This document shows positions 1-18,029 of a stretch of 18,029 bases of DNA, one piece after another (within the stretch, counting starts at the first letter, position 1; each line of letters opens with the position of its first letter). A model generated the notes under the pieces. It saw nothing but the letters and a program-made list of their open reading frames with translations. It did no database searches and was not told where the DNA came from. Made by a program: the position numbers and the translations under genes. This DNA is from Thermoplasmata archaeon. GTDB taxonomy: Archaea; Thermoplasmatota; DTKX01; GCA-020343715. Location of the stretch: NCBI GenBank assembly GCA_020343715.1, contig CP070808.1, forward strand, positions 1,695,019 to 1,713,047, written 5' to 3'.

Positions 1-2877
1 CACCGCCATGGTGTCTGTCGCCAGCTCGTCGCCCTGCTTGGCGGTGACGACCACCTGCTCGGTGTCCGCCGGGGCGAGGGCCCCCTCGGGGTAGAGGAAG
101 TTGAGGCGGGTGCCGTCGACGGTGCAGTAGACCGAGGATACGGTGATGGTCAGCTTGTTGTAGTCCTCCACGTTGTAGAGGTAGGGCTTGATGTCCACCG
201 TCAACGGGACCGTCTCCACGACCATCTGGTCGGGGATGCCCGTGACGACCAGCTTCTCGACCCTTATTATGTCTATGATGACCACTCCCGTCGCCACCGC
301 GCCCTCGGGGTCGACCACGGTCACCACCAGCTTGTCCTGCTCGATGCCCGACTCCTTGGGGTACTCGATGGTGACCACCTTGGAGTCCTCGTCGAAGGTG
401 GCGAACGGGTTGTCCACCGTCATCACCAGCTCCGACTTGGGGTTGTCCACGTCCGAGTAGGACCCGGACAGGTCCATGGAGTAGGGCTCGCCCTCGGTGA
501 CGGTGATCGAGGCGGGCAGGGTCAGGGTGGGCGGGTCGTTCACGTTAACCACCTCCAGGGTCCACCTGTAGGTGGCGGACATCCCGCCGGGGTCGGTGAC
601 GATGAGGTCGATCTGGTACACGCCCACGTCGTCGTTGGTGGGGGTCCACGATATGACCCCCTCGGTGGATATCGTCATGCCATCGGGGACGCTGGCCGCG
701 GAGAAGCTCAGGGGGTCCCCGTCCACGTCCTTGGCGGTCAGCCGGAACTCGAAGGGCTCGTCCTCGTATATCTGGGTGGGAGGGGTCTCCCCGAAGACCG
801 GTGGGTCGTTGACGGGACGGACCTGGATGGTGAATACCTCGGACTCGGCAGCCTGGCCCAGGCCGTCTGAGGCCTTCACCTTGACCTTGACCGAACCGTG
901 CCAGTTGTCGTTGGCCTCCCCGGTCTCTGCGTCGACGCCGATGTAGCGCCCGTCCTCCAACGTCACTGCCACTATGCCCACCTGGTCGACCTGGGTGACC
1001 GTGATCTTCATGTCCTCGAAGGCGGTCACGTCGTCGGAGATGTAGTCCGTGAGGTCGATGAGGTGCAGGTTCTTCGTGTCCTCGTCGATGGCGTAGGTGG
1101 AGGGGATGGGAGAGATGACGGGGGACCTGTCCACAACGATCCTCAAGCCCGACAGCTTGACCTTGCCGTTGGTGCCCGAGACCACGATGAGGGGCACCTT
1201 CAGGTAGCCCTCGTCGTTAGCCTTGTCCTTGTTGGCGGCTATGTAGTTGTTGAGCATCGCGGTGAAGTCCACCGTCTTGGCGGTGTACTCGAAGACTATG
1301 CGAATCTGGTCCACCCTCAGCACACCGGGGGAGGTGCTGGTGAAGTTGATGGCCACGTCGTGGAACTTGTTGCCCCAATTGTCCTGGTGGGAGTAGGCGC
1401 CCTTCAGGTGGGACTCCAGCTCGGTGGCCAGGTTCTTTACGACCACGGTGGTCTCCAGCTCACCACTGTAGGTCCACTCGTCGTCCCCGTCGTCGCCGAT
1501 GTCGATGGCCGGGTCCACGGGCGCGGAGATAATCTTCTCGTAGAAGTAGTAGGCACCGTCCGAGGCGCCCACGATGAGGTCCAGGTCACCGTCGTCGTCC
1601 AGGTCGCCCAGGGTCGGCCGGGCCCACTGGCCCACGTCGATGTCGCCACCGCCGTCGGGGTCGAAGGTCCACTTGGGGTTCGACTTGGTGCCCGTGTTCT
1701 CGTAGTAGGCCACGGTCCCGTTGTAGTTCCCCACGAATATGTCCAGGTCCCCGTCCTCGTCGAAATCGACGATCCACGGGGCGGCTGCATTGTCGGTGTT
1801 GATGTTGGCGAAGAAGTTGGCCGTCGACCAGCTCCACGTGCCCGATGAGTACTTGTTCTCGTAGGAGGAGACGCCCACGTTGGACTCACCGGTGGAGGCG
1901 TACCGGCCGTACGCCAGGTCCATGTCGTCGTCGTCGTCCATATCCCCGAAGTGGGGGGTGGCGTAGTAGCCCTCGTCGATGCCGTAGAAGACCGAAGATT
2001 CGCCGGTGCCGTTGTTCTCCCACGTGGGGCTGGCATTGCTGCCCGTGTTCCAGAACACACGGAGCTGCCCGTTGTATTGGCCGATGACCAGGTCGTTGTC
2101 CCCGTCGTCGTCCAGGTCCACGAGGCGTGGCACGGAGTAGAGGTACGCGTAGTTGTACGAGATGGGGATGTAGGAGGTGTCCAATTGCCACTTCGGGACG
2201 GACTTGTTGCCAACGTTCTCGAACATGTAGATCCAGTTGATGCGACCGCCCTGCCACTGGTAGCCGCCCGTGAGCAGGTCCAGGTCGCCGTCCGAGTCGT
2301 AGTCGATGAGCTGGGGACCGGGCCGCCCGCCGGTGTTGATGGGCACCACGTTGTTGCCCACCTTGTGGGACAGCTTGACCGGGTAGTCCCATCCGGCGTC
2401 GTACTCGATGCCGGTGACCCTCATCTCGGCCGAGGTGATCTTCGCTCCCGCCGGTAGCCTCAGCCTATACGAGTTGTCGAACCCGATGTCCTCGTAGGTC
2501 AGGTCTACGGAGGTGGACCGGTCGGTGAACCTGTCCAAGAACCCCATCGGGGTGTACGCCCTCTCTGCCCACATGTAGACGGGAGAGCCGATGGCACCCA
2601 TGTGGACCTGGAGCCGGTTGGGGTAGTTGTACGTGCCAGCGTCCATGCCGGTCACATAGAAGTACGCCTCGGTGGCGGTGCCGTCCACGGGGACCATGAA
2701 GGACGCGTCAGTGTTCTGGGTCCCGGAGGACAGCGTCAGCGTCACGTCCGAGGACCCACCGGTGAAGGTGGTGATGGTCTCGGCCATGGTCCCCTGGTTC
2801 ACCGTGGAGGAGGCGAGCATAAGAAGGACGACGGCAACTACGAAGAGGGATCTTGCGGCTATGCGGGCGGGTTTCAT
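1..2877 (-). CDS. Secreted FG-GAP/VCBS-repeat protein with cadherin/Ig-like repeats (3' end outside window)
   Basis: An open frame runs without a stop from the ATG at 2877 to the window edge (959 codons seen; the C-terminus is missing). The N-terminus is a Sec-type signal peptide (two basic residues, then a hydrophobic stretch, about residues 1-28). Five FG-GAP/VCBS units with DxDxDGDxD-type calcium-binding loops lie near residues 190, 251, 310, 366 and 422, spaced 56-61 residues, as in beta-propeller blades. After a linker or beta-domain come about four tandem cadherin/Ig-like repeats of roughly 90-95 residues, from about 585, 688, 778 and 870, with DPP and DxDGDPLSFSA-type signatures. Such proteins are normally cell-surface or secreted adhesins, or S-layer-associated proteins; the ligand is unknown. 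It is divergent from the YjbQ gene and shares an AT-rich promoter island with it. The frame was checked at several points and no frameshift was seen. Confidence 0.88.
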   Translation of the reverse strand, partial: MKPARIAARSLFVVAVVLLMLASSTVNQGTMAETITTFTGGSSDVTLTLSSGTQNTDASFMVPVDGTATEAYFYVTGMDAGTYNYPNRLQVHMGAIGSPVYMWAERAYTPMGFLDRFTDRSTSVDLTYEDIGFDNSYRLRLPAGAKITSAEMRVTGIEYDAGWDYPVKLSHKVGNNVVPINTGGRPGPQLIDYDSDGDLDLLTGGYQWQGGRINWIYMFENVGNKSVPKWQLDTSYIPISYNYAYLYSVPRLVDLDDDGDNDLVIGQYNGQLRVFWNTGSNASPTWENNGTGESSVFYGIDEGYYATPHFGDMDDDDDMDLAYGRYASTGESNVGVSSYENKYSSGTWSWSTANFFANINTDNAAAPWIVDFDEDGDLDIFVGNYNGTVAYYENTGTKSNPKWTFDPDGGGDIDVGQWARPTLGDLDDDGDLDLIVGASDGAYYFYEKIISAPVDPAIDIGDDGDDEWTYSGELETTVVVKNLATELESHLKGAYSHQDNWGNKFHDVAINFTSTSPGVLRVDQIRIVFEYTAKTVDFTAMLNNYIAANKDKANDEGYLKVPLIVVSGTNGKVKLSGLRIVVDRSPVISPIPSTYAIDEDTKNLHLIDLTDYISDDVTAFEDMKITVTQVDQVGIVAVTLEDGRYIGVDAETGEANDNWHGSVKVKVKASDGLGQAAESEVFTIQVRPVNDPPVFGETPPTQIYEDEPFEFRLTAKDVDGDPLSFSAASVPDGMTISTEGVISWTPTNDDVGVYQIDLIVTDPGGMSATYRWTLEVVNVNDPPTLTLPASITVTEGEPYSMDLSGSYSDVDNPKSELVMTVDNPFATFDEDSKVVTIEYPKESGIEQDKLVVTVVDPEGAVATGVVIIDIIRVEKLVVTGIPDQMVVETVPLTVDIKPYLYNVEDYNKLTITVSSVYCTVDGTRLNFLYPEGALAPADTEQVVVTAKQGDELATDTMAV

Positions 2878-2929
2878 GTGACGACCCCGGAGAGCCAACG
2901 CCGTGGCTCGGCTCTTCATGAACGGGTCG

Positions 2930-2940
2930 ATATAAATAAT
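2930..2940. promoter_or_regulatory. AT-rich TATA island between divergent genes
   Basis: An 11-bp AT-only island in G+C-rich surroundings reads TATAAATA on the plus strand (2931-2938) and TTTATAT on the minus strand (2930-2936). With the archaeal TATA-to-start distance of about 26 nt, the plus-strand start would lie near 2960 (leader about 60 nt to YjbQ) and the minus-strand start near 2907 (leader about 30 nt to the FG-GAP gene). Serving both directions is an inference. Confidence 0.6.
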
Positions 2941-3022
2941 GAGCGGATTCGTTGCCCCTCCACCGGCGGCCGCCAGGCCAACGTATTTCTGCCCCTGGCG
3001 CCCATGGCGGTGTGGGGTAGAA

Positions 3023-3424
3023 ATGGAGACGTTGTCGGTGAGGACGGGCCGGTCCGCCGAGGTGGTGGACGTGACGGGCATGGTGGAGGGCGTCGTCCGC
3101 TCGTCTGGCGTGACCGAGGGCATCGCCGTCGTGCATACGCCCCACACCACCACCGCCGTCGTGGTCAACGAGCGCGAGGGCGGCCTCACAGGGGACCTGC
3201 TGGAGTGGTCGGCGAAGGTCGCCCCCAAGGGGGCGGGCTACCGTCACGACGGGATGGACGGGAACGCCCACGCCCACCTGCGGGCGATGATGCTTGGGGC
3301 GTCGGCCACTATACCGATCGCGGGAGGACGGCTTGCGCTGGGCACCTGGCAGTCGGTCCTCTTCGTTGAGCTGGACGGTCCGCGGGACCGAAGGCTGAAC
3401 GTGCAGGTGATCGGAGACCGCTAA
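3023..3424 (+). CDS. yjbQ: YjbQ family (UPF0047) protein, secondary thiamine-phosphate synthase type
   Basis: The 133-residue product has the usual YjbQ length and signatures: HTPHTTTAVVVNE at about residues 38-50, a conserved His75, NAHAHLRAMMLGAS at 81-94 and GTWQSVLFVELDGPR at 107-121. Family members are small oligomeric proteins; some have weak thiamine-phosphate synthase activity, and the physiological role is not settled. The ATG at 3023 was chosen over an upstream in-frame ATG at 2939, because the extra 28 residues are low-complexity, unlike the family, and would start within a few bases of the TATA box. The gene ends 9 bp before the convergent cyclophilin gene. Confidence 0.92.
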   Translation: METLSVRTGRSAEVVDVTGMVEGVVRSSGVTEGIAVVHTPHTTTAVVVNEREGGLTGDLLEWSAKVAPKGAGYRHDGMDGNAHAHLRAMMLGASATIPIAGGRLALGTWQSVLFVELDGPRDRRLNVQVIGDR

Positions 3425-4369: not shown

Positions 4370-6367
4370 CTAATCGCCCTGCAGGACGTGGTCCAGCCAC
4401 CGGACGGTCGTCATTATCTGCACATGGTCCTTGCGCTTCCGGGCGTTGGAGAGGTTGTGGACGCAGCTGGGGCAGTCGGTGAGGCAGTAGTCTGCCTCCA
4501 TCTCGCGGATCTCCTCCATCCTCTGCTTGGCCATGGCCACCGACAGTGCCGGGTAGGTGGCTCGAAGGCCCCCGCCCCCGCCACAGCACTTGCTCTCCTC
4601 GCGGCTCCTGGGCATCTCCTTGAGGGTGGCGCCGGTGGTGGTGATGGCCTTCCGCGGCGCGTCGAAGCCCAGCAGGCCCCTGCCCGACTTCCGGCCCAGG
4701 TCACAGGGGTCGTGGTAGGTCACGATGCCCTCGAACTCCACGGGGAGGTCGGCCTTGGCCACCACCTCGATGAAGGGCATGACCTCTATGCCGGTGCCGT
4801 CCAGGTCATCGGCCAGCACGTGGGCGCAGGTGGGGCACAGGGTGACGACCCGCTTGGCGCCGGCGGCCATGATGGCCTCCCTGTTGTGGTTGATGGGTCC
4901 GTCGTCCCGCTCGCCTCCCAGGAGGTCCACGAGCGCCTGACAGCACCTTTCGTCCACGAAGGCGTACTCCAAGCCGATGCGGTCCAGGATCCTGCGGGCC
5001 GCCGGAATGTCCGAGTCCTCGGTCCTCCGCTCGGCACAACCCACATAGAGGACGGTCTCCGCCTTCCCCGGGGGCTCGGGTAGGTCCTGCAGCTCCTCCC
5101 CGTAGGGGGTCCCGTACTCCTCGACGACGTCCAGGACGACCTTGGCGGGCTCTATCAGCTTGCCCTCCTCGTAGGCTCTCTTCCGGAGGGAGCTGATTAC
5201 CGCCGGTGCGTCCACCGACGCGGGGCACGCAGACTCGCACAGCTCGCACTGGGTGCAGAAGTACAGACCGTGGTCCACGGCCTCCTCAAGACCCTCGGTG
5301 GCCGCCAACATCCCAACACCACGACCGCCCAGGGCGGGGGACTCCCCGTAGTTTAGGGCGATGGTGTCGTACACCGGGCAGTGGAGCAGGCAGTTGCCGC
5401 AGCCGATGCACTTGAACACCTCCAGCATCTCTCCCGTCGCCTCGGACCTGCCGTTGTCCAGCATGATGACCACGACCTCCTCCGGGCCGTGGATGCCCTC
5501 GAACAGCTTCTTCTCGATGTCCGCGGTCTTGGAAGGGCCGCCGATGATGTTGATGTACGAGGTCAGCACCGCCCCCGTGGCGTAGAAGGTCTGTAGACGT
5601 GCCGCGTTGAGGGCCTCGTCAAGGTTCGGATAGACCTTGTCCATGGCGGTCAGGATGATGTGCTTCCAGGGCCTCATGGAGACCTTGGTGATGTCCCCCT
5701 CGTTCTGGATGAGGAGGATCGCCCCCTCCTCGGCGCCTATCGAGTTAGCGCCCGTGAGGCCCACCTTCGCCTTCTCTATGGCGCTCGACAGGTCCTCGAG
5801 GACGAAGTCCGTCAGCTTGCGAGGGTCCGGTTCCAGCTCCCGACCCGCGTACTCCGACAGGATCTTGGCGATGTCGTACCTGTCCAGGTGGGCGGCGGGT
5901 CCCGTCGGATGGGCCCCCGGAAGGTCCGCGATCTGGATGATGCGGTCCCCCAGGTCCGTCTCCACCACCTCGTAGCCCATCTCGGTCATCTCGTGGGTCA
6001 GGTGGATCTCCTTGGACACGTTGGTCTTGCTCTTGACCAGCAATCGCTCGTCGCCCATCTCCTCGACCACCATGTCGAGGGCCTCCTTCGCGTCCACCGC
6101 CATCCTGACGCGGAACCCGGCCTTCTCCATGTTGGTGACGGCCTCCATGATGAGCTTGGGCTTGAGGAGTGTCTCCTCCCTCACCTTTCGGAGACGTTCC
6201 TTACGTGCCTCTATGTCCTTCATCCGATCGTAGTTGGCGGCCTGCTTGGACATGCTGGTGGCGAAGGCCTTCCTGAGGGCATCCCACTTCTTGCGTTCCC
6301 TGGTGGCCCGCTTGACGCGCTCCTCCAGGGCCATCGCCGTCTCATCAACATCCGCACGGACGACCAT
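4370..6367 (-). CDS. Fused LutB/LutA-like iron-sulfur protein (LUD + 2x[4Fe-4S] + 2x CCG)
   Basis: The 665-residue protein combines parts that are usually separate subunits. An N-terminal charged helical region (1-65) leads into a LUD domain (about 70-310; LVKSKTNVSKEIHL at 110-123, TGANSIGAEEGAI at 205-217). Then come two [4Fe-4S] motifs, C320/C323/C326/C330 and C371/C374/C377/C381, and two CCG cysteine-rich domains: C444, C475-C476, C511/C514 and C555, C594-C595, C632/C635. The first two regions match LutB (YkgF); the CCG pair matches LutA (YkgE), GlpC and HdrD. Relatives pass electrons from 2-hydroxyacid (lactate, glycolate) oxidation to quinone or other carriers; the exact substrate cannot be read from the sequence. 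No FAD-containing dehydrogenase partner is adjacent. A GGTGAT purine-rich site lies just before the ATG at 6367. It is cytoplasmic, with no signal peptide or membrane helix. Confidence 0.87.
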   Translation of the reverse strand: MVVRADVDETAMALEERVKRATRERKKWDALRKAFATSMSKQAANYDRMKDIEARKERLRKVREETLLKPKLIMEAVTNMEKAGFRVRMAVDAKEALDMVVEEMGDERLLVKSKTNVSKEIHLTHEMTEMGYEVVETDLGDRIIQIADLPGAHPTGPAAHLDRYDIAKILSEYAGRELEPDPRKLTDFVLEDLSSAIEKAKVGLTGANSIGAEEGAILLIQNEGDITKVSMRPWKHIILTAMDKVYPNLDEALNAARLQTFYATGAVLTSYINIIGGPSKTADIEKKLFEGIHGPEEVVVIMLDNGRSEATGEMLEVFKCIGCGNCLLHCPVYDTIALNYGESPALGGRGVGMLAATEGLEEAVDHGLYFCTQCELCESACPASVDAPAVISSLRKRAYEEGKLIEPAKVVLDVVEEYGTPYGEELQDLPEPPGKAETVLYVGCAERRTEDSDIPAARRILDRIGLEYAFVDERCCQALVDLLGGERDDGPINHNREAIMAAGAKRVVTLCPTCAHVLADDLDGTGIEVMPFIEVVAKADLPVEFEGIVTYHDPCDLGRKSGRGLLGFDAPRKAITTTGATLKEMPRSREESKCCGGGGGLRATYPALSVAMAKQRMEEIREMEADYCLTDCPSCVHNLSNARKRKDHVQIMTTVRWLDHVLQGD

Positions 6368-8403: not shown

Positions 8404-9048
8404 CTACTCCGACCCACGGCCGTCGATCGGGCAGGTGATGTTGATGAAGCCTTGGACGGCCTCCTGGATCTCGTCCCTTCCCCTGTGGAAGAAGTGGTCC
8501 GAGCCCTCCACCACCACGTGAAGGCCCCCCGTCATCAGGCTCCTGGAGAGCCCGTCGTCCAGGGGGGCCACGTCGTCGAACTCACCGGTGATGTAAAGCG
8601 AGGGGATGTCCTTGTAGTCGGGGTAGTCGGTGGTGGACGGCACCGCGACCCCCACGAAGGCGTTCGCCCTCCCCCCGTCGTTGAGCCAGGTGGTGGCGAC
8701 CTTGGCACCGAAGGAGTAGCCCATCAGGATGACGCAGCCGTCCTTGGCCAGCTTCTTCGCGTGCGACATGGCCGCGTCCACGTCGTCCACCTCCTTGACG
8801 CCCCCCGACTGGGTCCCCTCGGACCTACCAGTTCCCCGGAAGTTGAAGAGCAAGGGAACGAACCCCTCCTCCCACGCCGCGCTGGCCAAGGAACGGACCA
8901 CCGCGTTGTGCATGTCGCCTCCGAAACCTGGATGGGGGTGGCAGACCACGGCCACCCCCGAGAACTTCTCCCCGTCCTTGGGGTCTAGACCCAGCTCCAT
9001 CTCCAACTGCAGACCGTCGGCGGTCTTGAGCCATCCTACCTTCGACAC
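8404..9048 (-). CDS. Alpha/beta hydrolase, COG2945-like (HPHP and GYSFG motifs)
   Basis: The 214-residue cytoplasmic alpha/beta-hydrolase has the signatures of the short COG2945-type group: CHPHPGFGGDMHN (36-48) forming the oxyanion region, FNFRGTGRSEG (69-78), the nucleophile elbow GYSFGA with Ser112, a candidate acid at Asp158 or Asp159 (TGEFDDV), and the catalytic His185 in GSDHFFH. The substrate is unknown; relatives are esterase-like. It starts with GTG at 9048, one base after the stop of the upstream 72-residue membrane-protein gene, so it is probably the last gene of the Rieske/cytochrome b operon. Its link to electron transport may be only co-transcription. Confidence 0.9.
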   Translation of the reverse strand: MSKVGWLKTADGLQLEMELGLDPKDGEKFSGVAVVCHPHPGFGGDMHNAVVRSLASAAWEEGFVPLLFNFRGTGRSEGTQSGGVKEVDDVDAAMSHAKKLAKDGCVILMGYSFGAKVATTWLNDGGRANAFVGVAVPSTTDYPDYKDIPSLYITGEFDDVAPLDDGLSRSLMTGGLHVVVEGSDHFFHRGRDEIQEAVQGFINITCPIDGRGSE

Positions 9049-9049
9049 G

Positions 9050-9268
9050 TCAGGTCCTCCTCCTCGTCCTCTCGTTCCACCGCTCCGGGGAGCTTATGGG
9101 CGCCACCACAATGGCGGCACCGGCAAATAATAGCAGCGCGGCCCATCCCAAGGAGCCCCGGGCGAGCATCTCGATGCCCACGGCGAATGTCAGAACCCCC
9201 ACCAGCTTGGACCCGAATACCCAGGCCTTGTAGCCGGTGGAGATCTCGTTGGCGGGGCCGTCCGTCAC
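9050..9268 (-). CDS. 72-residue two-helix membrane protein in the Rieske/b-Hdr operon
   Basis: The GTG start at 9268 overlaps the TGA of the upstream HdrA-MvhD-like gene (GTGA, 4 bp), and the frame ends one base before the hydrolase start. The product has a short polar N-terminus, two hydrophobic helices (about residues 18-35 and 39-56) separated by an ARGSLG turn, and a basic C-terminal tail (ERWNERTRRR). I do not recognise a family. Its position after the redox subunits and its size suggest a small accessory or assembly subunit of the membrane complex; this is inference. The frame remains open far upstream, but that part lies inside the HdrA-like gene in another frame. Confidence 0.75.
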   Translation of the reverse strand: MTDGPANEISTGYKAWVFGSKLVGVLTFAVGIEMLARGSLGWAALLLFAGAAIVVAPISSPERWNERTRRRT

Positions 9269-10791
9269 ACCCCCCACCCCCTGGCCCACGGACCGTCCCG
9301 CTCGCGCACCACGCCCGTCTCCTCGCGCTCGTACCTGCGCTCCTCCACCGCGGAGATCACGCGGGTGGCGAGCACGTCCTTGTCCGTGGGTCCCAACGTG
9401 AGGACGAAGATCCGCTCCAGGTCCCCGCTGCTGGACAGGCTGGCCTCCATGTTCCTCATGTGGTCCTCCACCAGCGCCCTCCTGTCTCTGAAGTGGCATC
9501 CCCGCTCCGAGCAACCAGCCATGATCACCGGGTCCGCCCCTGCCCCCAGGGCCACCTGCACCAGGTGGGGCGAGAGCCTGGCCAGGCAGGGAAGCCTCAA
9601 GGGGGCAAGGCCCTTGGGCAGCAGGTCGTCCTGGTAGGCCTGGTCCATGGCTCTGTAGGCGGACCAGTTGCACGTGATCAGGAGGTTTGGCGTCCTGGAC
9701 GCGCCCACGCCGATGGCCGCCTCCAGCTCCCTCGTCGTGTAGCCCGCCTGCTCCACGGCCCAGTTCATACACGCGCTGGGGCAAGCGCCGCAACCGGCGC
9801 ACAGCTGGGGGTCCACGGAAACCACGCCCTGCCCGTCCACCAGGTCTATGGCGCCGTAGGGGCAGACCCTGACGCACTTGAGGCAGCCGATGCAGGCTTC
9901 CGGCTCGACCCTGGCCAGGGCGGCCGTGCCCCTGGCCCTCCGACCCAAGTAGGCGGCGGCGGTCCCGGCCGCAGACCTGCCGTCCTCGCCCACGAGGAAC
10001 ACGCCCTGGACCTTGCGGGGCGGTCTGTCCATCGACCTGTGGGGCAGGCCCCATCCCACCCCAGCCTCCCTCTCCTGTTCAGCGAGGCCGGGGGCCACCA
10101 GCACCGTCCCCACCCTGAGCTCCACCTCGTCCCCCAGTCGGGCCAGGACGACGGTGAAGTCGCCCCCTCCTCCCCGAAGGGAGATGACCCTCGCGGGCAT
10201 GTGCAGGGTTATGTTTTCAGGGGCGGTCGAACCTACGCCCACGGGGGCCGAGCCGTCCACCAGGTGGGTGGGCACGCCCCGCTCCCCCAGCTCCACGGCG
10301 GTGGCCCTACCCAATCTCCCGGCCCCCACCACCAGGGCCGCGCGCACAGGGTCGCTGGTGGCCCGTGGAGGGACGTCGTCGGGGGCCTGGCCCATGGCCG
10401 CGATCGCCATCGCCACCATGGTCACCGAGTCCCGGGTGCTCTTGCCATGGTCCTTGACGTTGACGAAGGCGTGGTGGGCCCAAGGGATACGTGAGGCGTC
10501 CTTTACGGCCTCGCGGAGGCCCGCCCGCTCGTCGTTGCAGGCGGCACACCTCTGCGCCTGGGAACAGCACGCGCATGCCGCCACCACCAGCCTGTCCAGG
10601 GTGTGGCGCTTGACCAGGTCCCCCGCCAGCACCATGTTGCCCGCCCCGCACAGGTCGTCGGTGGCCTCGGCGTGCACCACCCCGGGCATAGTCACCGTCT
10701 CGGCGACGATGGTGTCCGCGTCGATGCCCGTCTCGGACCGTGACCAGCAAGAACATGCCAACACACCGATCCGGGGTAGACCGTCCGTCAT
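9265..10791 (-). CDS. Compact HdrA-MvhD-like fusion (Rossmann/FAD-type, 2x[4Fe-4S], MvhD-type domain)
   Basis: The 508-residue protein is cytoplasmic. Residues 5-135 match the N-terminal domain of HdrA (IGVLACSCWSR, LPGVV-like TMPGVVHAE, LDRLVVAAC) but are unusually Cys-rich (C13, C15, C48, C73, C75, C76, C82, C85). A Rossmann segment with GAGRLG (156-161) starts a shortened FAD/NAD-type domain of about 140 residues. The inserted ferredoxin and much of the flavoprotein domain of standard HdrA are absent. Two [4Fe-4S] motifs follow: C300/C303/C306/C310 and C331/C334/C337/C341. Residues 368-480 resemble MvhD (delta subunit of F420-non-reducing hydrogenase): TCNWSAY, PCLARL, AGCSERGCHF, where Ser377 replaces the second Cys of the usual CNWC. 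In methanogens HdrA bifurcates electrons and MvhD links hydrogenase to it; here I infer electron transfer to or from the neighbouring membrane HdrD-like module. ATGA overlaps the upstream gene. Confidence 0.83.
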   Translation of the reverse strand: MTDGLPRIGVLACSCWSRSETGIDADTIVAETVTMPGVVHAEATDDLCGAGNMVLAGDLVKRHTLDRLVVAACACCSQAQRCAACNDERAGLREAVKDASRIPWAHHAFVNVKDHGKSTRDSVTMVAMAIAAMGQAPDDVPPRATSDPVRAALVVGAGRLGRATAVELGERGVPTHLVDGSAPVGVGSTAPENITLHMPARVISLRGGGGDFTVVLARLGDEVELRVGTVLVAPGLAEQEREAGVGWGLPHRSMDRPPRKVQGVFLVGEDGRSAAGTAAAYLGRRARGTAALARVEPEACIGCLKCVRVCPYGAIDLVDGQGVVSVDPQLCAGCGACPSACMNWAVEQAGYTTRELEAAIGVGASRTPNLLITCNWSAYRAMDQAYQDDLLPKGLAPLRLPCLARLSPHLVQVALGAGADPVIMAGCSERGCHFRDRRALVEDHMRNMEASLSSSGDLERIFVLTLGPTDKDVLATRVISAVEERRYEREETGVVRERDGPWARGWGV

Positions 10792-12584
10792 CCTTGCCCA
10801 CCCCCGTCATCGTCAGTGGCCGGAGGTGGGAGCCGGGCGGCCAGGAACTGGGTCAGGTCCAGGATGGCCATCTCGCCGTGGCGACCCTCGTCGGAGGCGC
10901 ACTGCAGGTGGGCGATGCACTTGGGGCAGGTGGTGACCAAGGCGTCCGCGCCTGCGTCGACGGCCTGGTCCAGCCTCCGGACCAGCAGCTCCCTGGAGGC
11001 CTGGTCGCAGTTCATCATGGCGGCCACCCCGCAGCACTGGGCCTTGTCCCGGTTCTCGGCCATCTCCACCAGCTGGACGCCGGGAACCGAGGCCACCAGC
11101 TCCCGGGGGTCCTCGTAGACCTCCATGTGGCGACCCAGGCGGCAAGGGTCGTGGTAGGCGACCTTGAGGTCCTCCCCTCCACCGGTCGGTCCCTCGAGGG
11201 TAGGCATCCGCCGGGCCCTCAGGAACTGGGACACATGCTGGACGGTGACGTCCCCCAGGTCGTAGTCCCTCACCAGCGTCCTGTAGCACTCGGCGCACTC
11301 GGTAACGATGGTGCGGACCCCCGACGCCCGGATGATGATGGAGTTCATCCCCCGGAGGAGATGGAAGGTCTCGGTGTCGCCCTGCCATAGGGCGTCGTGG
11401 CCGCAGCACAGGTGGGGGATCTCGTACGGGTCCTCCCCCACGGCCCGGAGCAGGGCCAGGGTCGCCTCCCGGTGGTCACGGAAGTCGTGGGCGACCCGGG
11501 TCAGCGGGAGCAGGTCCGAGCACCCGGCGAAGTACCCGACACGGTCCCCCGCCTCACCGTGCTCGGGCATGTGCACCTTCGTCTGCCGGGATGTGCGCCG
11601 GGTGTGCCAAGCCATCAGGTCCCTGCAATGCTGGGGCCTCCGCTGGGGTTCAACCACCACCCCCTGGGCCCGCATGGCCTGGGTGTGGTCCGAGAAGACG
11701 ACCCCCTGGGGGCACGAGGCCGAGCAGCGGTCGCATGCCAGGCAAGTCCATACGTGGTCGTCCACCTGGGCGTGCTGGTAGTGGATGAGGTTGAGCCGGG
11801 GCTCGTCCCTGACGGGCCTCACGGGACAGACCCGGTCGCAGTTCCCGCAGCCGTGGCACTGGTTGAGCTGCCACTCGTAGTCCCCTGTGCTCCGGGCGGA
11901 GCGGAGCGAGCCGTAGGCCAGCAGCCCGACGGCCAGGGGCAGCAGCCAAAGGGACGCCCTGAGGCTGGCGTCGGATATCCATTCGAAGCGCTCCTCCACC
12001 ACCTCGTGGATGGAGTACACGGAGGCCATGAGCACGTAGGTGACCGCGGCGGCGCCCACCGCCGCCATGGCAGGGTCCGCCATCGGCCGCTTCGCCCTCC
12101 TTCCCTCGGAGAAGGTTATAGGGGCCTTCCGGAAGGACCTGCCCGCGTACGCGATGATCCGGTCGATCCACGGCACCGCAATGACGGCGACCACGGTGAG
12201 GATGATCAGCAGGACCCCCAGGGTCTTGCCCGATATCCAGTCCACGCCGAAGGCCGATACGTTGGGGGCGGCCTTGAGCAGCCCGAACGCCCACAGGAGG
12301 TACCAGTCAGGCAGGAGCCGGTCGGGGGTGACGTCCGGGTTCGCGGGGTCACCCAGGGCCGGGGGCACCAACGCCGCCAGGACGGACATGGTGGCCATCA
12401 GGTAGAAGAACAGGGCCAGGTCCCTCATGGCCTCCTGGGGGTAGAGGGGCGAGCCTATCCTGGGGCGGGGCTCCCCCCGCCTCCTCCTACGAGGGGCGAG
12501 CTCGTCGTCCAGCAGCCTCCGGACCCGCAGGTACCTGAGCACCATGTCCCTGAGCCTGGGGTCCTCGGCCCCCCCACCGTCCAT
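10788..12584 (-). CDS. Cytochrome b6f subunit IV-like protein fused to an HdrD-like CCG module
   Basis: The protein has 598 residues. After a basic N-terminus come four hydrophobic helices (about 55-75, 121-140, 172-190, 210-226). The Qo-site motif PDWY (92-95; PEWY in most complexes), followed by LLWAFGLLKA, identifies the C-terminal cytochrome b domain (subunit IV). Subunit IV normally has three helices and ends outside. The fourth helix here would return the chain to the cytoplasm, in agreement with the basic N-terminus and the basic 141-168 loop. Residues 240-590 form an HdrD-like module: [4Fe-4S] at C243/C246/C249/C253 and C281/C284/C287/C291, and two CCG domains (C355, C393-C394, C430/C433; C481, C517-C518, C553/C556). 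In HdrD, CCG cysteines bind the noncubane [4Fe-4S] clusters that cleave heterodisulfide; the substrate here is unknown. The ATG at 12584 lies 27 bp after the cytochrome b stop codon. Confidence 0.9.
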   Translation of the reverse strand: MDGGGAEDPRLRDMVLRYLRVRRLLDDELAPRRRRRGEPRPRIGSPLYPQEAMRDLALFFYLMATMSVLAALVPPALGDPANPDVTPDRLLPDWYLLWAFGLLKAAPNVSAFGVDWISGKTLGVLLIILTVVAVIAVPWIDRIIAYAGRSFRKAPITFSEGRRAKRPMADPAMAAVGAAAVTYVLMASVYSIHEVVEERFEWISDASLRASLWLLPLAVGLLAYGSLRSARSTGDYEWQLNQCHGCGNCDRVCPVRPVRDEPRLNLIHYQHAQVDDHVWTCLACDRCSASCPQGVVFSDHTQAMRAQGVVVEPQRRPQHCRDLMAWHTRRTSRQTKVHMPEHGEAGDRVGYFAGCSDLLPLTRVAHDFRDHREATLALLRAVGEDPYEIPHLCCGHDALWQGDTETFHLLRGMNSIIIRASGVRTIVTECAECYRTLVRDYDLGDVTVQHVSQFLRARRMPTLEGPTGGGEDLKVAYHDPCRLGRHMEVYEDPRELVASVPGVQLVEMAENRDKAQCCGVAAMMNCDQASRELLVRRLDQAVDAGADALVTTCPKCIAHLQCASDEGRHGEMAILDLTQFLAARLPPPATDDDGGGQG

Positions 12585-12604
12585 CCTGTCGGTCGCCGTC
12601 CCGT

Positions 12605-12612
12605 CACCTCCT
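12605..12612 (-). promoter_or_regulatory. Strong Shine-Dalgarno-like site upstream of the subunit IV-HdrD gene
   Basis: The minus strand reads GAGGAGGTGA directly after the stop codon of the cytochrome b6-like gene. It lies about 19 nt before the ATG at 12584, farther than the usual 5-10 nt, but no in-frame start codon is closer. Confidence 0.4.
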
Positions 12613-15242
12613 CAGTGGGGCTCCGCCAGGCCCTGGATGTACACGGCGATCAGGTGGACCACCATCAGCGTGATGGTGGCCAGGGGCAGGAACAGGACGT
12701 GGAAGAAGTACATTCGTGTCAGGGTGGCCGCCCCCAGCTCCACCCCACCGAATATGAGCTCCGCGAACCAGTCGCCCGCCACCGGCACTGTGCGGGCCAT
12801 CTCCAGCCCGATGGTCCCGGCCCAGTACGAGAGCTGGTTCCAAGGGAGCAGGTAGCCCGAGAACCCGTAGAAGATGGTGAGGACCAGGAGGATGGACCCC
12901 ACGACCCAGTTGAGCTCCCTGGGGTTCCTGTAGGCCCCGGTGAAGAAGACCCGGAGCATGTGCAGGAACACCGCGGCGATCATGATGTTGGCGGCCCAGT
13001 GGTGGATGGCGCGGAACATGAAGCCGAAGCTCACGTCCTCCATGATGGTCTCCACCGACCTGTAGGCGGCCGAGGGGTCGCCCTCCGAGGAGGGAACGTA
13101 GTAGAGCGACAGGACCAGGCCGGTGACGCCCAGGACCACGAAGCAGAGGATCGCGATGCCCCCCAGGCAGTAGAAGGGATACCAGTACCACACGGTCTTG
13201 GCCCCGTAGCGCTCGGCGTGGGTGTGGGGCATCTGGCGGTCGATGGAGTAGTAGAGGCGGCGGGCCTCGGTAAGGTATCGGGCGGACCGCACCCGCTCCT
13301 CCACCCATGCGAAGGCGGTGAGGGCCACCCGACCCCAGCCCCACCGGACCTGCACCACGGCCAGCACCGCCACCAGCGCGATGGCGGACACCAGGAGGGC
13401 CAGGTCCCACCAGGTCTCCAGCCAGTCCTCGATGTAGAATACGGGCCGGTCGGCCTCCGGGTCGGGTGCCGCCACGTAGCGGAGGGCATAGGGCTCCAGG
13501 GCGGTGTTGCCCGCCAGATCCTCCAAGGTGGCGTCCACGTTGACGGTGTACACCCTCCCCAGCTCGGTGCCCTCCAATGTCACCGTCAGTACGTTGCCGG
13601 ACCACGAGAAGGAGGCGGTGGCCATTGGGGAGACCCATATGGCCTCCTCCACGGAGGTCCGGTCCATCGCCTCGGACCAGGTCAGGCGGACCTGCCCCCC
13701 CGGGGCCAGGTTGGAGCCCGCCGGCGGGGCGGCGGAAACCAGGTAAGGAGGGGTCCTGTCCGAGGAGCCTGCCGTGCTGAACACGAGCAGGTACGGCTCC
13801 TCCATTGGGTTGCCACGCACGTCCATGAGTGACGTTCCCACCGTCAGGTTGTACGTGACCCCCTCCTCGAGGGGATGCCCGGGCGTCAGCGTGGCCGTCG
13901 ATCCCTCCCATGATATGTCGGCCAGGACCGGTGGTTGCCAAGAGAGGGCACCCGGGAGCGTGTCTCGGTCCACGTCGTCGGACAGGGTCAACGACACCGT
14001 GGTCACCAGCGGGACGTCGGTGGAGCGGTTCTTGGGGGACGTGGAGTGGACCTCGGGCGGCACCGTGTCCGCGATGGTGAGGAAGGTGGAGAAGACATCC
14101 GTTCCCATAGGGTTGCCAGCCAGGTCCCTGGCCGAAGCGTCCACCCTCACGGTGTACAGAGTGTCGTAGTCCAACAGCCCGTGGGGGGTGAACACCAGGG
14201 TGTCCTCCTCCCACGAGAGGTTCCCGGCCACGTCAGGGTCGATGGAGGTGGCATTGATTACAGATGCCCTATCCATCGGCTCTGAGAACGTGATGCGGAC
14301 CACGGCGTCCCTGGGTGCTCGAGAGGACAGGATGCTGAGTATCACAGGGGGATAGAAGTCCTGGTCCGACCCAGTGGTGAACGCCACCTCAAGGGGCTCC
14401 AGCAATTGGATACCGTCCATGTCAAAAGCCGTTGTGTCAAGCCGGTAGGTATAGGTGGTGGCTTCATCGAGCAGGTCGTCGGGATTGAAGCGGGCCACTG
14501 GGCCCTCCCACGTGAAGGTACCGTCTACGGGCGGGTCGATGCTGAAAGCGCCCTCTACCGAGGGGCGATCCATCTCCTTGTTGAAAGCAATCACCACTGG
14601 GCTGTTGATGAAGACATCCTCTGTTCCGTTCCTGGGCGTGGCGTCCAACACCTCGGGGGGTGGGACGACCCGGAACGGGAGCGCGTCGAACACGTCCCTG
14701 GAGATGGGATTGGTGTCGAACTCCCCATTGAGGTGGTCGACACCCGTCTGCATCCTTATCATGATGGTGTGGTTACCGGGGACCGGTGGGGCCTGGAGAA
14801 GCCAAGTGAAGGATGCCGAGGTGTTGCCTGTTACCCCCAGGGCGGGCATCTTCGAGTAGTCGAAGCCTGGGGACCTGCCTCGCGGGTCCTGCTGGATCAC
14901 CCAACCCCATCGCTGCACCGGGGACAGGAGGGGGTTCTCAAGGTTGGACAGGATGCTGACCCCGATCGGGTCCCCCTCGTACTGCTCGGCCCCGGTGACG
15001 TTCACCAGGACGGTGATGTTCGGCTGTCCCGCGTAGACCGTCAGGTCAGGTGTCCATGCGGTGACATTCGCCAGCGATGTGTTGGAACCGGGAAGGCCGT
15101 GACATGCCTCGGTGTTGTTGCACAGTCCCCAGTTCTTCTCCTCGGCACCGTTGGGATTCGCGAACACAGGATATAGGGCCGCCCCCACGGCCAGGAGGGC
15201 GATGAGCAAGGCCAGGGTCACGCGGACCCTGCCCCTCTCCAT
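12612..15242 (-). CDS. Cytochrome b6-like protein with N-terminal secreted CX5CH domain and four SbsA-type Ig domains
   Basis: The product has 876 residues. A signal peptide (1-28) leads to an extracytoplasmic domain (30-195) with CNNTEACH (C41, C47, H48), somewhat like Reeler/choice-of-anchor V domains. Four SbsA/Big_5-type Ig domains follow (about 196-290, 297-391, 395-490, 498-590), each with an EMDR/EPMDR/EAMDR-type or related motif and an LxxxxxYxxxVD-type strand. An extra helix (612-632) crosses back in before a b6-like four-helix core (688-870). Heme ligands are H747/H761 (14 apart) and H848/H863 (15 apart), the b6 spacing. TGAYRNPRELNW and SGYLLPWNQLSYWA are b6-like. FYCLGG (C692) matches the b6 cysteine that covalently holds heme c-i. 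It should hold hemes bL and bH for quinol/quinone chemistry with the adjacent Rieske and subunit IV. Its ATG shares the A of the Rieske TGA, with a GGAGG site about 9 nt upstream. Confidence 0.92.
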   Translation of the reverse strand: MERGRVRVTLALLIALLAVGAALYPVFANPNGAEEKNWGLCNNTEACHGLPGSNTSLANVTAWTPDLTVYAGQPNITVLVNVTGAEQYEGDPIGVSILSNLENPLLSPVQRWGWVIQQDPRGRSPGFDYSKMPALGVTGNTSASFTWLLQAPPVPGNHTIMIRMQTGVDHLNGEFDTNPISRDVFDALPFRVVPPPEVLDATPRNGTEDVFINSPVVIAFNKEMDRPSVEGAFSIDPPVDGTFTWEGPVARFNPDDLLDEATTYTYRLDTTAFDMDGIQLLEPLEVAFTTGSDQDFYPPVILSILSSRAPRDAVVRITFSEPMDRASVINATSIDPDVAGNLSWEEDTLVFTPHGLLDYDTLYTVRVDASARDLAGNPMGTDVFSTFLTIADTVPPEVHSTSPKNRSTDVPLVTTVSLTLSDDVDRDTLPGALSWQPPVLADISWEGSTATLTPGHPLEEGVTYNLTVGTSLMDVRGNPMEEPYLLVFSTAGSSDRTPPYLVSAAPPAGSNLAPGGQVRLTWSEAMDRTSVEEAIWVSPMATASFSWSGNVLTVTLEGTELGRVYTVNVDATLEDLAGNTALEPYALRYVAAPDPEADRPVFYIEDWLETWWDLALLVSAIALVAVLAVVQVRWGWGRVALTAFAWVEERVRSARYLTEARRLYYSIDRQMPHTHAERYGAKTVWYWYPFYCLGGIAILCFVVLGVTGLVLSLYYVPSSEGDPSAAYRSVETIMEDVSFGFMFRAIHHWAANIMIAAVFLHMLRVFFTGAYRNPRELNWVVGSILLVLTIFYGFSGYLLPWNQLSYWAGTIGLEMARTVPVAGDWFAELIFGGVELGAATLTRMYFFHVLFLPLATITLMVVHLIAVYIQGLAEPH

Positions 15243-15853
15243 CAGACCGCCTCCAACCTGCCATCGATGACGTGCAGCGGTATCTTGGGCAGCGGGAGGG
15301 GCGGTGGTCCGTACACCACCTTGGCGTTGCGGAAGGGGTCGAAGGCCCCCTGGTGGCAGGGACAGTAGATGACGCCATCGGGAAAGTCCCCCGCGGGGGT
15401 CTGGCCCACGGCGAAGTAGACCTGGCAACCCAGGTGGGTGCAGGTGCTGGAGTAGGCGACGAAGCCCATGTCGGTGCCCGACCGGTCCACCAGCTGCCTC
15501 TCTTCGAACCTCATCAGGATGGCCTTCTGGCCTCCCACGTAGACCTTGGCCGACTCGCCTACGGGGAACTCCGTGGCCAGCACCTCCCGGCCGTCCAGGT
15601 CCGAGTACCAGGGGTTCTCGCCCTGGGGGACATGGTAGACGAAGGCCTTCGACGAGGGACCGGTCGAGGAGTCCCCACCAGTGGTAAGCGAGCGGACCAC
15701 CGAGCCCCCGAAGGCACCGACCCAAGCGGCTCCCGCCACGGCGGCCCCGGCCTTCACGAAGGTGCGACGGGACATGGTCGATGGGGGATCGCCCTCCACG
15801 ACGTACCGCTCATCGGTGCCGTCTCGGCCTCCATCCTCCCCATCCTCGGTCAT
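15242..15853 (-). CDS. Rieske iron-sulfur protein with Tat signal
   Basis: The 203-residue Rieske subunit accepts electrons from quinol at the Qo site of a cytochrome b complex. The [2Fe-2S] ligands are C138/H140 (CTHLGC) and C164/H167 (CPCHQG); C143 and C166 form the expected disulfide. An acidic N-terminus precedes a twin-arginine motif SRRTFVKAG (28-36) and a hydrophobic segment (about 36-52) that probably stays as the membrane anchor, so the folded cluster domain lies outside. The C-terminal GPPPLPLPK proline loop (182-190) is typical. It starts 15 bp after the stop of the upstream membrane-protein gene and overlaps the cytochrome b6-like gene by one base, as expected for subunits of one complex. 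Confidence 0.96.
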   Translation of the reverse strand: MTEDGEDGGRDGTDERYVVEGDPPSTMSRRTFVKAGAAVAGAAWVGAFGGSVVRSLTTGGDSSTGPSSKAFVYHVPQGENPWYSDLDGREVLATEFPVGESAKVYVGGQKAILMRFEERQLVDRSGTDMGFVAYSSTCTHLGCQVYFAVGQTPAGDFPDGVIYCPCHQGAFDPFRNAKVVYGPPPLPLPKIPLHVIDGRLEAV

Positions 15854-15868
15854 CGTGCGTCCACCCCG

Positions 15869-16234
15869 TCAGTCCTGCCTTGGGACCACCTTGTCCTTCC
15901 TTCGCTTGACCACCAGCTTGTCCGGCATGAAGCCGGTCCGGTAGACATCGGTCATCACGCCCAGGGTCAGGAACATGGCGGCCAGCACAAGGGCCAGCGG
16001 TCGCTGGTCCCATCCGTCTATGAGCCCCCAGAGGAACATGGACGCGAAGAGCACCTCCAGGACCACCAGGGACCAGAATATGATGGTGAGGCCCTGGCCC
16101 GGTCGGGCGGCCTCGCGGCGCACGGTGGTGCCCATGGCGGGCTTGGATGGGATGGCCTCCCTGTCATCGATGGCCGCCTCGGCCTCCTCGAGGGTTATCT
16201 CCCCCCGCTGGAGCCTCCGGAGGATGTCCCGCAA
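15869..16234 (-). CDS. Two-helix membrane protein with YvlB/SHOCT-like N-terminal motif, first gene of the operon
   Basis: The 121-residue product starts with a helical LRRLQRGEITLEEAEAAIDD segment (about 5-24). This resembles the short 'L..GKIT.EEA..LL' motif at the N-termini of YvlB/LiaX- and SHOCT-type proteins, often linked to oligomerisation or membrane association. Two hydrophobic helices follow (about 49-72 and 78-95), then a basic C-terminal tail. The start is TTG at 16234: an in-frame stop lies eight codons upstream, a GGTGGT site precedes it, and the next Met (about residue 34) would remove the recognised motif. Being 15 bp before the Rieske gene, it is probably an accessory subunit of the Rieske/cytochrome b complex (inference). 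No heme or metal motif is seen. Confidence 0.75.
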   Translation of the reverse strand: MRDILRRLQRGEITLEEAEAAIDDREAIPSKPAMGTTVRREAARPGQGLTIIFWSLVVLEVLFASMFLWGLIDGWDQRPLALVLAAMFLTLGVMTDVYRTGFMPDKLVVKRRKDKVVPRQD

Positions 16235-16440: not shown

Positions 16441-16463
16441 CCGGCCCAATCATGGTCAGACCG

Positions 16464-18029
16464 ATGGGCAAGCCTGGACGTTCACACGCTAGGGGCTTGA
16501 TATGCACTCTGGTCCTCTTCATGCTGCTCGGCAGCGCCTTCATCGCGACCACGCCAGCCGCCGCTGCCCCGGGTGACCTGGTGGCACCGGTCTACATGGA
16601 CGGCGACTGGTGGAACCACACCTGGGACGGCACCCACCACGTGCCGGCCGAGGTGGGGGAGTACAGCGTGGAGTTCGACACCGTGGATGGATGGCTCAAG
16701 CACACCGTCGACGGCACCACCAGCTACCTGGGCAAGGTGGCGTGGGTTATGGAGGTGAGCGGCAAGGTCCGGCTCGAGGGTGACTGGTCCAGCGGCTCGG
16801 AGACCGGGACGACGTCCTTCGATGCCTGGGTCAGCGGGAAGGAGTACCGCTCCACCGACGACCTGGCCATACTGGGTTCCGCCCTGAGCTACTCCGGAGG
16901 CCTGGAGATCGCCACCAAGACCGGGCCCGAGGACTTCGATGTCGTGATTTACGAGAACCGGACCTTGGACAGGCCCCTCCGGATGCTTCTGTTCCCGGTC
17001 CCCATAGCAACCTTCCCGTCGGAGAGCCACACCGTGACCCAGCGGTGCACCTTCGAGGTGGGCTCCTACTCCTCGACCCGGGTGGAGAAGTGGCAGTACA
17101 CCTCCACCTACAAGGGCCTTGGACAGGTCCAGGGCAAGGACATCACCTTCACCAACCAGCACACCTTCGCCATAGAGGGAAACGTGACTGTGGGCGAGCA
17201 GACGGACACCCTTGACCTCAGCGTCTACTACGAGAACACCCCGAGGAAGGCTGTCACCGTGGACCAGGCCAGGTCCCTGGAGGTGAGCACCTACGAGGTC
17301 TCCGCGGCGACCGGGTTCCCCGACCTGGTGGTGGCCGACGGTGAGTTCAACGTTACCGACGAGGCCCCCGTGGAGGGCACCGAGGTCAACTTCACCGCCA
17401 CCGTCCACAACATCGGCGCCATGGAGGTCCTCTCCGTGGTGGTGGAGCTGTGGTCGAGCCAGGACGAAGGCAGGCCCAGCCGCGAGAACTCCACGACCAT
17501 ACCCAAGATAGAGCCGAACGGCGCCGCCGTGGTGCACTTCAACTGGACGGGAGTCGAAGTGGGACTTTGGGAGTTCTTCCTCCGTGTCGACCCCACCAAC
17601 ATCGTCACCGAGAACCGTGAGGACAACAACGAGGCGACCCTCCTGATGATCGTCACCCACGACGTCCCGAAGCCCAACCTCTACGTGGTGGAGGACGGGA
17701 TCGAACTCGACCCGCCGTCCCCTGTGAACAACAGGACCGCCCTCAAGATCACTATAACCGTGGGCAACGACGGCCCCGGTGGGGCCGAGAATGTCAGCAT
17801 AGACCTCTACCTGGGAGAACCGGGCCAGGACGGGGTCAAGATAGGATGGCGCGAGAGCATCGACAACATTCCCTCCGGCGAGACCCGGTCGGCCTGGATT
17901 AACTGGGGCGCCAACATCCCGGGGAACCACAACCTATGGGTCCATCTGGACGGTAACAACACGGTGAACGAGACGGTGGAGACGGACAACCTGGCATCGG
18001 TACCCATCATCATCGTGGCCACCGCCCAG
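16464..18029 (+). CDS. Secreted CARDB-domain protein (3' end outside window)
   Basis: An open frame runs from the ATG at 16464 to the window edge (522 codons). The signal peptide has a basic start (KPGRSHARG), a hydrophobic core and a TPAAAAP-like end (about residues 1-38). Residues 40-285 form a beta-rich, Trp- and Thr-rich domain that I do not recognise; it contains several NxT/NxS sequons. Two CARDB-type adhesion domains follow: about 286-402 (NFTATVHNIG, VDPTNIVTENREDNN) and about 404-520 (ITITVGNDGP, LDGNNTVNETVETDN). The N-x-V-x-E-x-x-x-x-N-N type ending is the CARDB hallmark. The protein is probably surface-exposed; its role is unknown. It is divergent from the respiratory operon, so shared regulation is possible but unproven. 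Confidence 0.85.
   Translation, partial: MGKPGRSHARGLICTLVLFMLLGSAFIATTPAAAAPGDLVAPVYMDGDWWNHTWDGTHHVPAEVGEYSVEFDTVDGWLKHTVDGTTSYLGKVAWVMEVSGKVRLEGDWSSGSETGTTSFDAWVSGKEYRSTDDLAILGSALSYSGGLEIATKTGPEDFDVVIYENRTLDRPLRMLLFPVPIATFPSESHTVTQRCTFEVGSYSSTRVEKWQYTSTYKGLGQVQGKDITFTNQHTFAIEGNVTVGEQTDTLDLSVYYENTPRKAVTVDQARSLEVSTYEVSAATGFPDLVVADGEFNVTDEAPVEGTEVNFTATVHNIGAMEVLSVVVELWSSQDEGRPSRENSTTIPKIEPNGAAVVHFNWTGVEVGLWEFFLRVDPTNIVTENREDNNEATLLMIVTHDVPKPNLYVVEDGIELDPPSPVNNRTALKITITVGNDGPGGAENVSIDLYLGEPGQDGVKIGWRESIDNIPSGETRSAWINWGANIPGNHNLWVHLDGNNTVNETVETDNLASVPIIIVATAQ

Follow-up and report, generated by a model that had tools for sequence, protein, structure and literature searches.

What might an iron-sulfur module resembling heterodisulfide reductase (Hdr), probably exposed to the cytoplasm, be doing on a membrane complex of the cytochrome b6f type? 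The question is raised by an 18,029-nucleotide stretch of contig CP070808.1 (assembly GCA_020343715.1, positions 1,695,019 to 1,713,047) from a Thermoplasmata archaeon, here called the window (GC 65.7%). In it, a minus-strand run of seven co-directional genes at 8404-16234 encodes a Rieske protein, a cytochrome b6-type subunit, a protein in which subunit IV continues into HdrD, and another in which a cut-down HdrA is joined to MvhD. We found that this operon specifies a genuine b6f-type complex in a conserved form of which little has been described. It is a complex III of the aerobic type, with an Fe-S module built in, probably on the n-side, and not a methanogenic heterodisulfide reductase. 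The genes are, in operon order:

15869..16234, minus strand: DUF7318 small membrane protein of 121 amino acids (aa) with 2 hydrophobic segments (PF24002, E 3e-12); opens the conserved core
15242..15853, minus strand: Rieske [2Fe-2S] protein (PF00355, E 4e-10) with the TAT-type signal SRRTFVK
12612..15242, minus strand: cytochrome b6-type subunit, 876 aa (Big_5 and Cytochrome_B matches)
10788..12584, minus strand: subunit IV-HdrD fusion, 598 aa (PF00032, Fer4, and two CCG matches)
9265..10791, minus strand: cut-down HdrA fused to MvhD/FlpD, 508 aa (ferredoxin and FlpD matches)
9050..9268, minus strand: small membrane protein, 72 aa, with 2 hydrophobic segments (no Pfam or NCBIfam family match at E <= 0.01)
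8404..9048, minus strand: alpha/beta hydrolase (PF12697), the final gene and probably not a subunit of the complex

A conserved operon

The seven genes lie where a reading of the DNA from sequence alone (the sequence-only reading) had placed them, and their recomputed junctions are, in gene order, +15, -1 (TGATG), +27, -4 (ATGA), -4 (GTGA), and +1 bases. Pfam and NCBIfam searches back the gene names given there, with amendments for the b6 and HdrA parts. Close relatives, 63-83% identical, have the genes in the same order: L001 retains the first five genes up to the end of its contig, and L002 and L003, two contigs of one metagenome-assembled genome (MAG), jointly retain all seven and two genes beyond, with the hydrolase still adjacent in L003 (70% identity). 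The operon is real, and this conservation shows that its arrangement is not due to chance.

Further loci came from one genome-collection scan, of which we used the best 80 of 557 confirmed loci; 77 of these are more distant from the window, mostly Poseidoniales/Marine Group II (MGII), Thalassarchaeaceae, or Euryarchaeota, and several are short. Among the 77, tblastn detected DUF7318 in 59, cytochrome b in 69, subunit IV in 71, and HdrD in all, and the alpha/beta hydrolase in none. Of the 63 loci with room for one, 61 have a Rieske-like open reading frame (ORF) immediately ahead of cytochrome b, and in the other two (L002 and L009) tblastn found the Rieske gene. DUF7318 is also encoded upstream of Rieske in the genomes G010, G333, G390, and G097. 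The window is kin of G001 and G002; 146 of 389 genomes in the phylum of G002 match at E <= 1e-50, and three of five in its class at E <= 1e-60. The core gene order recurs across Thermoplasmatota, marine Poseidoniales included. A gene order without conservation in relatives, named beforehand as a finding that would refute the sequence-only reading, was not what we observed: the full order is conserved in close relatives and the core in other lineages.

Related complexes have been reported. In Angelarchaeales-1, hdrD-like and rnfB-like genes lie near complex III; of 30 Ca. Angelarchaeales loci, 23 have a plastocyanin-like gene ahead of Rieske (Diamond et al. 2022, PMC9038741). In MGII, where a canonical bc1 is missing, cytochrome b and Rieske are encoded, joined in many families by RnfB (Tully 2019, PMC6336850). 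Both share the Rieske/cytochrome b pair with the window, accompanied by hdrD-like and rnfB-like genes in the former and by RnfB in the latter; within their accessible text, these two accounts mention neither a fusion nor its topology, and neither catalytic cysteines nor HdrA-MvhD. In Methanoperedens, HdrDE is separate from a Rieske/cytochrome b complex that is itself non-canonical (PMC4683180), Yaplasmales MAGs are described as lacking cytochrome bc (PMC9239135), and the accessible part of PMC9478090 holds nothing on fusions. An open-access literature search, outside which lay most subscription papers and all of bioRxiv, likewise returned no passage describing a subunit IV-HdrD fusion, its topology, intact Hdr sites, or an exchange of HdrA-MvhD.

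The fusion protein and the cytochrome core

The fusion comprises, from its N-terminus, a subunit IV with the motif PDWY, an extra hydrophobic segment, two CxxCxxCxxxCP clusters, and two CCG domains. Subunit IV and HdrD share one frame in 72 of the 80 loci, some of which are short. A covalent link between a quinone-handling membrane subunit of the b6 type and an Hdr-type Fe-S module in the cytoplasm, as the sequence-only reading had it, is borne out by these loci, which conserve the gene order, and by the motifs of their ORFs; we regard it as very probable that this covalent architecture exists. The cubane cysteines (C243, C246, C249, C253; C281, C284, C287, C291) and the CCG-site cysteines (C355, C393, C394, C430, C433; C481, C517, C518, C553, C556) are invariant in 14 of 14 aligned rows, and all 79 HdrD ORFs found among the loci retain, at each of the two sites, the CCG pair and the CxxC. 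With both CCG sites complete, dithiol/disulfide chemistry at HdrD would be possible. The HdrC-like cubanes and two CCG domains are shared with methanogen HdrDE and HdrABC-MvhAGD (5odc, 8rvy), whereas the membrane partner here is cytochrome b6/subunit IV with Rieske and not the HdrE/NarI type of HdrDE. A plasmid search with the fusion protein gave 56 records, none covering 80% of it, and the 20 plasmid matches listed involve the HdrD part alone at 24-29% identity.

Subunit IV has three helices and its N-terminus inside, so an extra hydrophobic segment after it would place HdrD in the cytoplasm. Hydropathy calls four clear segments ahead of the ferredoxin part in P0033, and three, the fourth among them, in P0013 and P0018. 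In the Poseidoniales-type P0035, an acidic stretch (12 K+R vs 47 D+E) lies ahead of the last segment, which would fit an outer loop.

The Rieske/cytochrome b complex to which the fusion is predicted to belong is complete and of the b6f type. The split into b6 and subunit IV, the four heme-b histidines, the heme-ci cysteine, the PxWY Qo motif (PDWY, subunit IV residues 92-95), and the Rieske protein are common to it, to b6f (PetB/PetD/PetC), and to menaquinol b6-type complexes. It differs from these in that subunit IV runs on into the hydrophobic segment and HdrD, and in that b6 bears an outer part of about 600 residues. The sequence-only reading had listed a b6-like protein; the b6 domain stands (among solved structures its family profile best matches the cytochrome b6 subunit of b6f, E 4e-55), but the 876-aa subunit is not a plain b6, since a signal-like helix, a C-x5-CH domain, four Ig-like Big_5 repeats, and one membrane helix come before that domain. 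Its FYCLGG (C692) aligns letter for letter with cytochrome b6 FYCLGG, which holds the heme-ci cysteine in b6f. C692 and the heme-b ligands H747, H761, H848, and H863 are invariant in 21 of 21 aligned rows, and the heme-ci motif YPxYCxGG is present in all 70 cytochrome b ORFs found among the 80 loci. A structure model of the full subunit (mean predicted local distance difference test, pLDDT, 69) is of low quality at the N-terminal motif and in the membrane region; its fold matches, to Ig-like repeats and b6, add little given this quality.

The Rieske protein carries the cluster boxes CTHLGC and CPCHQGAF, with a TAT_signal match slightly below the model cut-off. Its top solved-structure matches are 3fou and 1nyk, presumably Thermus proteins. 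In bc1 Rieske proteins a Ser and a Tyr raise the redox potential; the window protein has Gly and Phe at these positions, which suggests a low-potential, menaquinone-type Rieske.

Modules predicted on either side of the membrane

In the C-x5-CH domain of the b6 ectodomain, C41, C47, and H48 are invariant in 21 of 21 aligned relatives, with a C-x7-CH spacing instead in P0165, and they may form an outer heme or metal site. No canonical CXXCH occurs in any of the seven operon proteins, and family searches of these proteins recognised no cytochrome f or c1. PF01578 (cytochrome c assembly) has matches in 11 of 11 genomes examined. The earlier statement that no cytochrome c is encoded here holds as far as canonical CXXCH is concerned; in view of the invariant C-x5-CH it is not established beyond that. 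The distant loci encode a separate membrane-anchored GCxCH protein instead: it is present in 58 of the 59 loci with enough upstream sequence and missing only from L002, which is closely related to the window. Three of these GCxCH proteins were compared with the choice-of-anchor V model NF041895, and all three pass it. A GCxCH domain of this kind is also fused to the N-terminus of COX1 in L144 (G003), L141 (G097), and L163 (G005). These arrangements hint at an outer carrier module common to complex III and the oxidase, neither motif being the standard CXXCH. Homology between the C-x5-CH domain and the MGII GCxCH choice-of-anchor V domain was considered and is unsupported: the profile score of 15.0 compares with a mean of 12.9 and a maximum of 18.5 in 30 column shuffles and with 15.3 for a Big_5 control, and local comparison of the two domains gave no useful match.

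On the cytoplasmic side, the HdrA-MvhD protein consists of an HdrA N-domain, a minimal FAD-type domain, a 2[4Fe-4S] ferredoxin, and FlpD. The fusion named in the sequence-only reading is correct for the HdrA N-domain and for FlpD (PF02662, E 1e-15; C374, C402, C427, and C432 invariant in 16 of 16 rows) but not for a full HdrA, most of whose middle is gone. HdrA-type NCBIfam matches fall below the model cut-offs, and in alignments, with which a structure model agrees, the NAD(P)-like half, the inserted ferredoxin, and about 290 middle HdrA residues are absent. A loss of the HdrA FAD site, as a first reading of the alignments had it, is contradicted by the model, which keeps the FAD-type half; its fold matches mostly span residues 146-288, and G156/G158 of GxGxxG and D270 are near-invariant. 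Methanogen HdrABC-MvhAGD has the same HdrA N-domain, FAD-type fold, C-terminal ferredoxin, and FlpD domain. It differs in retaining the missing HdrA middle and the fifth FlpD cysteine (CNWC), which is absent from 12 of 12 core rows here, where CNW[S/A] stands instead. As HdrA has lost its inserted ferredoxin along with the NAD(P)-like half, bifurcation at its flavin is hypothetical, and so is the use of proton motive force that the sequence-only reading also raised.

Two observations concern HdrA-MvhD in relatives. In L003 (772-2283, MAG CSMAG_707) it reads CIGCLKSVRVGP, with Ser and Gly at the positions of the relatives' cluster cysteines, possibly an assembly error. The G001/G002 lineage is rich in Hdr-like sequences (42 HdrA/MvhD-like matches in G001 and 35 in G002, as well as 36 CCG matches in G002), and G002 has a heme-copper oxidase too.

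Direction and substrate of electron flow

The genomic context of the complex is respiratory and mostly aerobic. Taking a best E <= 1e-70 as a strong match, a threshold chosen after seeing the phylum scan, and setting 27 weaker genomes apart, COX1 (counted at E <= 0.001; in G199 only at 1e-5) is present in 112 of 119 strong-match genomes and in 80 of 270 others. Eight of the 27 weaker genomes have COX1 (including the split-gene relatives G010 and G097) and 19 do not (including G333 and G390). MCR_alpha was found in none of nine relatives carrying the complex; two methanogen controls were positive. The COX1 and MCR counts argue against heterodisulfide chemistry in the methanogen sense, which the sequence-only reading had brought in and which we set aside.

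We propose that the clusters form a wire: a donor in the cytoplasm would act at the CCG site, and its electrons would pass through the cubanes to n-side heme ci/bH and to quinone at Qi. HdrA-MvhD would dock on HdrD as an extra electron input, a place that an RnfB-like or polyferredoxin protein would take in other lineages. Quinol would then be oxidised at Qo, and electrons would exit via Rieske and outer carriers to a terminal oxidase. The net effect would be transfer from a cytoplasmic dithiol and/or reduced ferredoxin or flavin to quinone, inside a complex running a Q cycle. The order of cubanes followed by CCG domains is that of the EtfD wire (PMC13083937), and transfer from a dithiol couple (-143 mV) to menaquinone (-80 mV) would be downhill (PMC4683180). 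Also in favour are the complete b6f and Hdr ligand sets, COX1 in most strong-match genomes, the tree position of the complex III HdrD domains given below, and the ferredoxin-type gene near the complex in four loci of other lineages. Input from the cytoplasm to the quinone is probably the main role of the module. The overall mechanism, from dithiol and/or ferredoxin to heme ci/bH and quinone, stands for us at about even chances, with both its substrate and its direction conditional, and a dithiol as a substrate is, in our view, less likely than not.

Several points weigh against this proposal. Its substrate, its direction, and the complex itself are deduced from genes and motifs. Hydropathy calls three regions in the window fusion itself, the fourth lying below threshold. 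In G010 and G333, where the CCG part is a separate gene in another frame, the first CCG site reads CAEG and has lost its final, bridging cysteine, so that dithiol chemistry is not universal. CoM/CoB chemistry, which would have put a name to the thiol, is unlikely, MCR being missing from all nine relatives. HdrA-MvhD, one of the modules named in the sequence-only reading, proved to be lineage-specific: tblastn finds it in none of the 77 distant loci, it is absent from two Poseidoniales-type genomes searched, and a ferredoxin-type gene lies near the complex in the four other-lineage loci read closely (L123, L129, L131, and L136). Even this association varies: L131 encodes its ferredoxin and small membrane genes on the other strand, and in G005 the fusion has neither as a neighbour. 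Finally, seven of the 119 strong-match genomes, G001 among them, gave no COX1 match, and the oxidase correlation is inflated by shared ancestry, most strong matches looking Poseidoniales-like in length and identity. The small membrane genes that adjoin the ferredoxin in L131 and L136 have no detectable similarity to the 72-aa protein of the window, for which tblastn gave no match in the 77 distant loci.

The ferredoxin-type partners in other lineages also speak for another scheme, in which ferredoxin is oxidised by the partner (an RnfB-like protein, or HdrA-MvhD in the window) and the CCG sites have a structural role or are relics. Ferredoxin entry at complex III was suggested for Angelarchaeales-1 by Diamond et al. 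(PMC9038741), and the ligand lost in the lineage of G010 and G333 would agree with it. The ten CCG cysteines invariant in every aligned row, and the motifs kept in every HdrD ORF, are hard to square with a relic, and we consider pure ferredoxin entry unlikely.

Electrons might also run the other way. Qo would then split quinol, one electron going to Rieske while the second travels by way of bL, bH, and heme ci to HdrD/HdrA-MvhD, which would reduce a cytoplasmic disulfide or, with flavin, a lower-potential carrier. The full disulfide-reductase ligand set at both HdrD sites and the FAD-type fold of HdrA with its near-invariant residues are what such an output would call for, and heme ci could serve as the n-side exit. 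Transfer from bL to bH, however, works against the membrane potential, HdrA is without its NAD(P)-like half and inserted ferredoxin, and the other-lineage loci read closely have just a ferredoxin-type protein as partner. Moreover, the step from menaquinol (-80 mV) to heterodisulfide (-143 mV) would be uphill (PMC4683180). Output in this direction is thus unlikely. A combined form, with quinone splitting at Qo and the flavin of HdrA-MvhD in one path, such that respiration drives disulfide or ferredoxin reduction or the reverse confurcation takes place, seems quite unlikely.

A third alternative is that HdrD acts as an ETF (electron transfer flavoprotein) dehydrogenase, an EtfD-like wire carrying electrons of fatty or amino acid oxidation from ETF to quinone. 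ETF is present in eight of nine relatives, and the ETF-QO ferredoxin domain exceeds its cut-off in none of the nine (there are two weak matches, including one to the polyferredoxin adjacent to the complex in G010); ETFQO_UQ-bd does so in none of ten genomes. The window HdrD is homologous to the solved structure 9ojn, which we take to be mycobacterial EtfD. The membrane part of EtfD is NarI-like. Hdr sites depend on a bridging cysteine that is presumably the final cysteine of each CxxC (Cys81 and Cys234). According to the accessible text of PMC13083937, these two bridging cysteines are needed at Hdr sites, whereas in EtfD Thr539 replaces one cysteine and His583 completes the other cluster. EtfD is likewise described there as a membrane heme-b protein with cubane and CCG domains that forms a cytoplasmic wire to menaquinone, but its CCG ligands are non-catalytic; the window protein has a b6/IV membrane part and complete Hdr ligands. 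Aligned to 9ojn, C394 stands at the position of Thr539 and E432 at that of His583, and C433 and C556 are present. The first site reads CAEC and CCG, and the marks of EtfD (the His of CxHC and a non-Cys residue in the CC pair) are both absent.

Separate EtfD-like proteins with CPHC and CSG or CNG (L195, L198, L200, and L190) are encoded in two Poseidoniales-type genomes (G003 and G004) and two other relatives (G097 and G333). They were named by motif and membrane start rather than by family search, and are apparently the ETF dehydrogenases of these archaea. In G003 and G004 the complex III HdrD keeps CCG and CAEC, while the separate protein has CSG and CPHC; because the same genomes hold such a protein, the complex III HdrD does not appear to be the ETF dehydrogenase. 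An earlier idea that HdrD is the sole ETF outlet in Poseidoniales was dropped when this separate protein was found. A tree of 45 HdrD-like domains places all 22 rows from complex III in a single fork (support 100/98), apart from the EtfD-like rows. Next to this fork stand standalone proteins, among them P0041 from a Methanosarcinales archaeon, with long branches on some rows that leave the deeper order unsure. An ETF dehydrogenase role is decidedly improbable. The HdrD, HdrA, and MvhD names and family matches might also point to a genuine CoM-S-S-CoB heterodisulfide reductase serving methanogenesis or methanotrophy, which is extremely improbable, with no MCR in the nine relatives and a heme-copper oxidase in many.

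The preferred input from the cytoplasm to the quinone would mean that the module is probably an extra route feeding cell-interior electrons into respiration. The central respiratory complex of much of the phylum bears a covalent cytoplasmic module whose class is known elsewhere from methanogens and ETF dehydrogenases, with an intact disulfide-type active site in mostly oxidase-bearing genomes. Ferredoxin entry into b6f at heme ci is debated; if the proposal is true, the fusion would be a natural, hard-wired counterpart of it. The identity of the thiol or carrier in the cytoplasm that would feed this b6-type complex at its n-side, or drain it there, is a testable question. Poseidoniales (MGII) are globally abundant and their complex III is group-specific (PMC6336850); in its accessible part, that account gives no mechanism.

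Among the neighbouring genes, a LUD-Fer4-CCG-CCG fusion (LdhH/LutB-like) is encoded at 4370-6367 on the same strand, two genes downstream of the operon, a neighbourhood repeated in L003 at 80% identity. A PilT-type ATPase with a KH domain (PRK13764; 6841-8370) adjoins the operon, and this adjacency is also kept in L003. The large open frames that flank the region (1-3228 and 16452-18029) look secreted by eye. A further secreted-looking protein, with a canonical CXXCH (CRSCH), is encoded in L178 (G001) beside ETF and acyl-CoA-dehydrogenase-like genes, and a protein with a similar start occupies the same place in L179 (G002).

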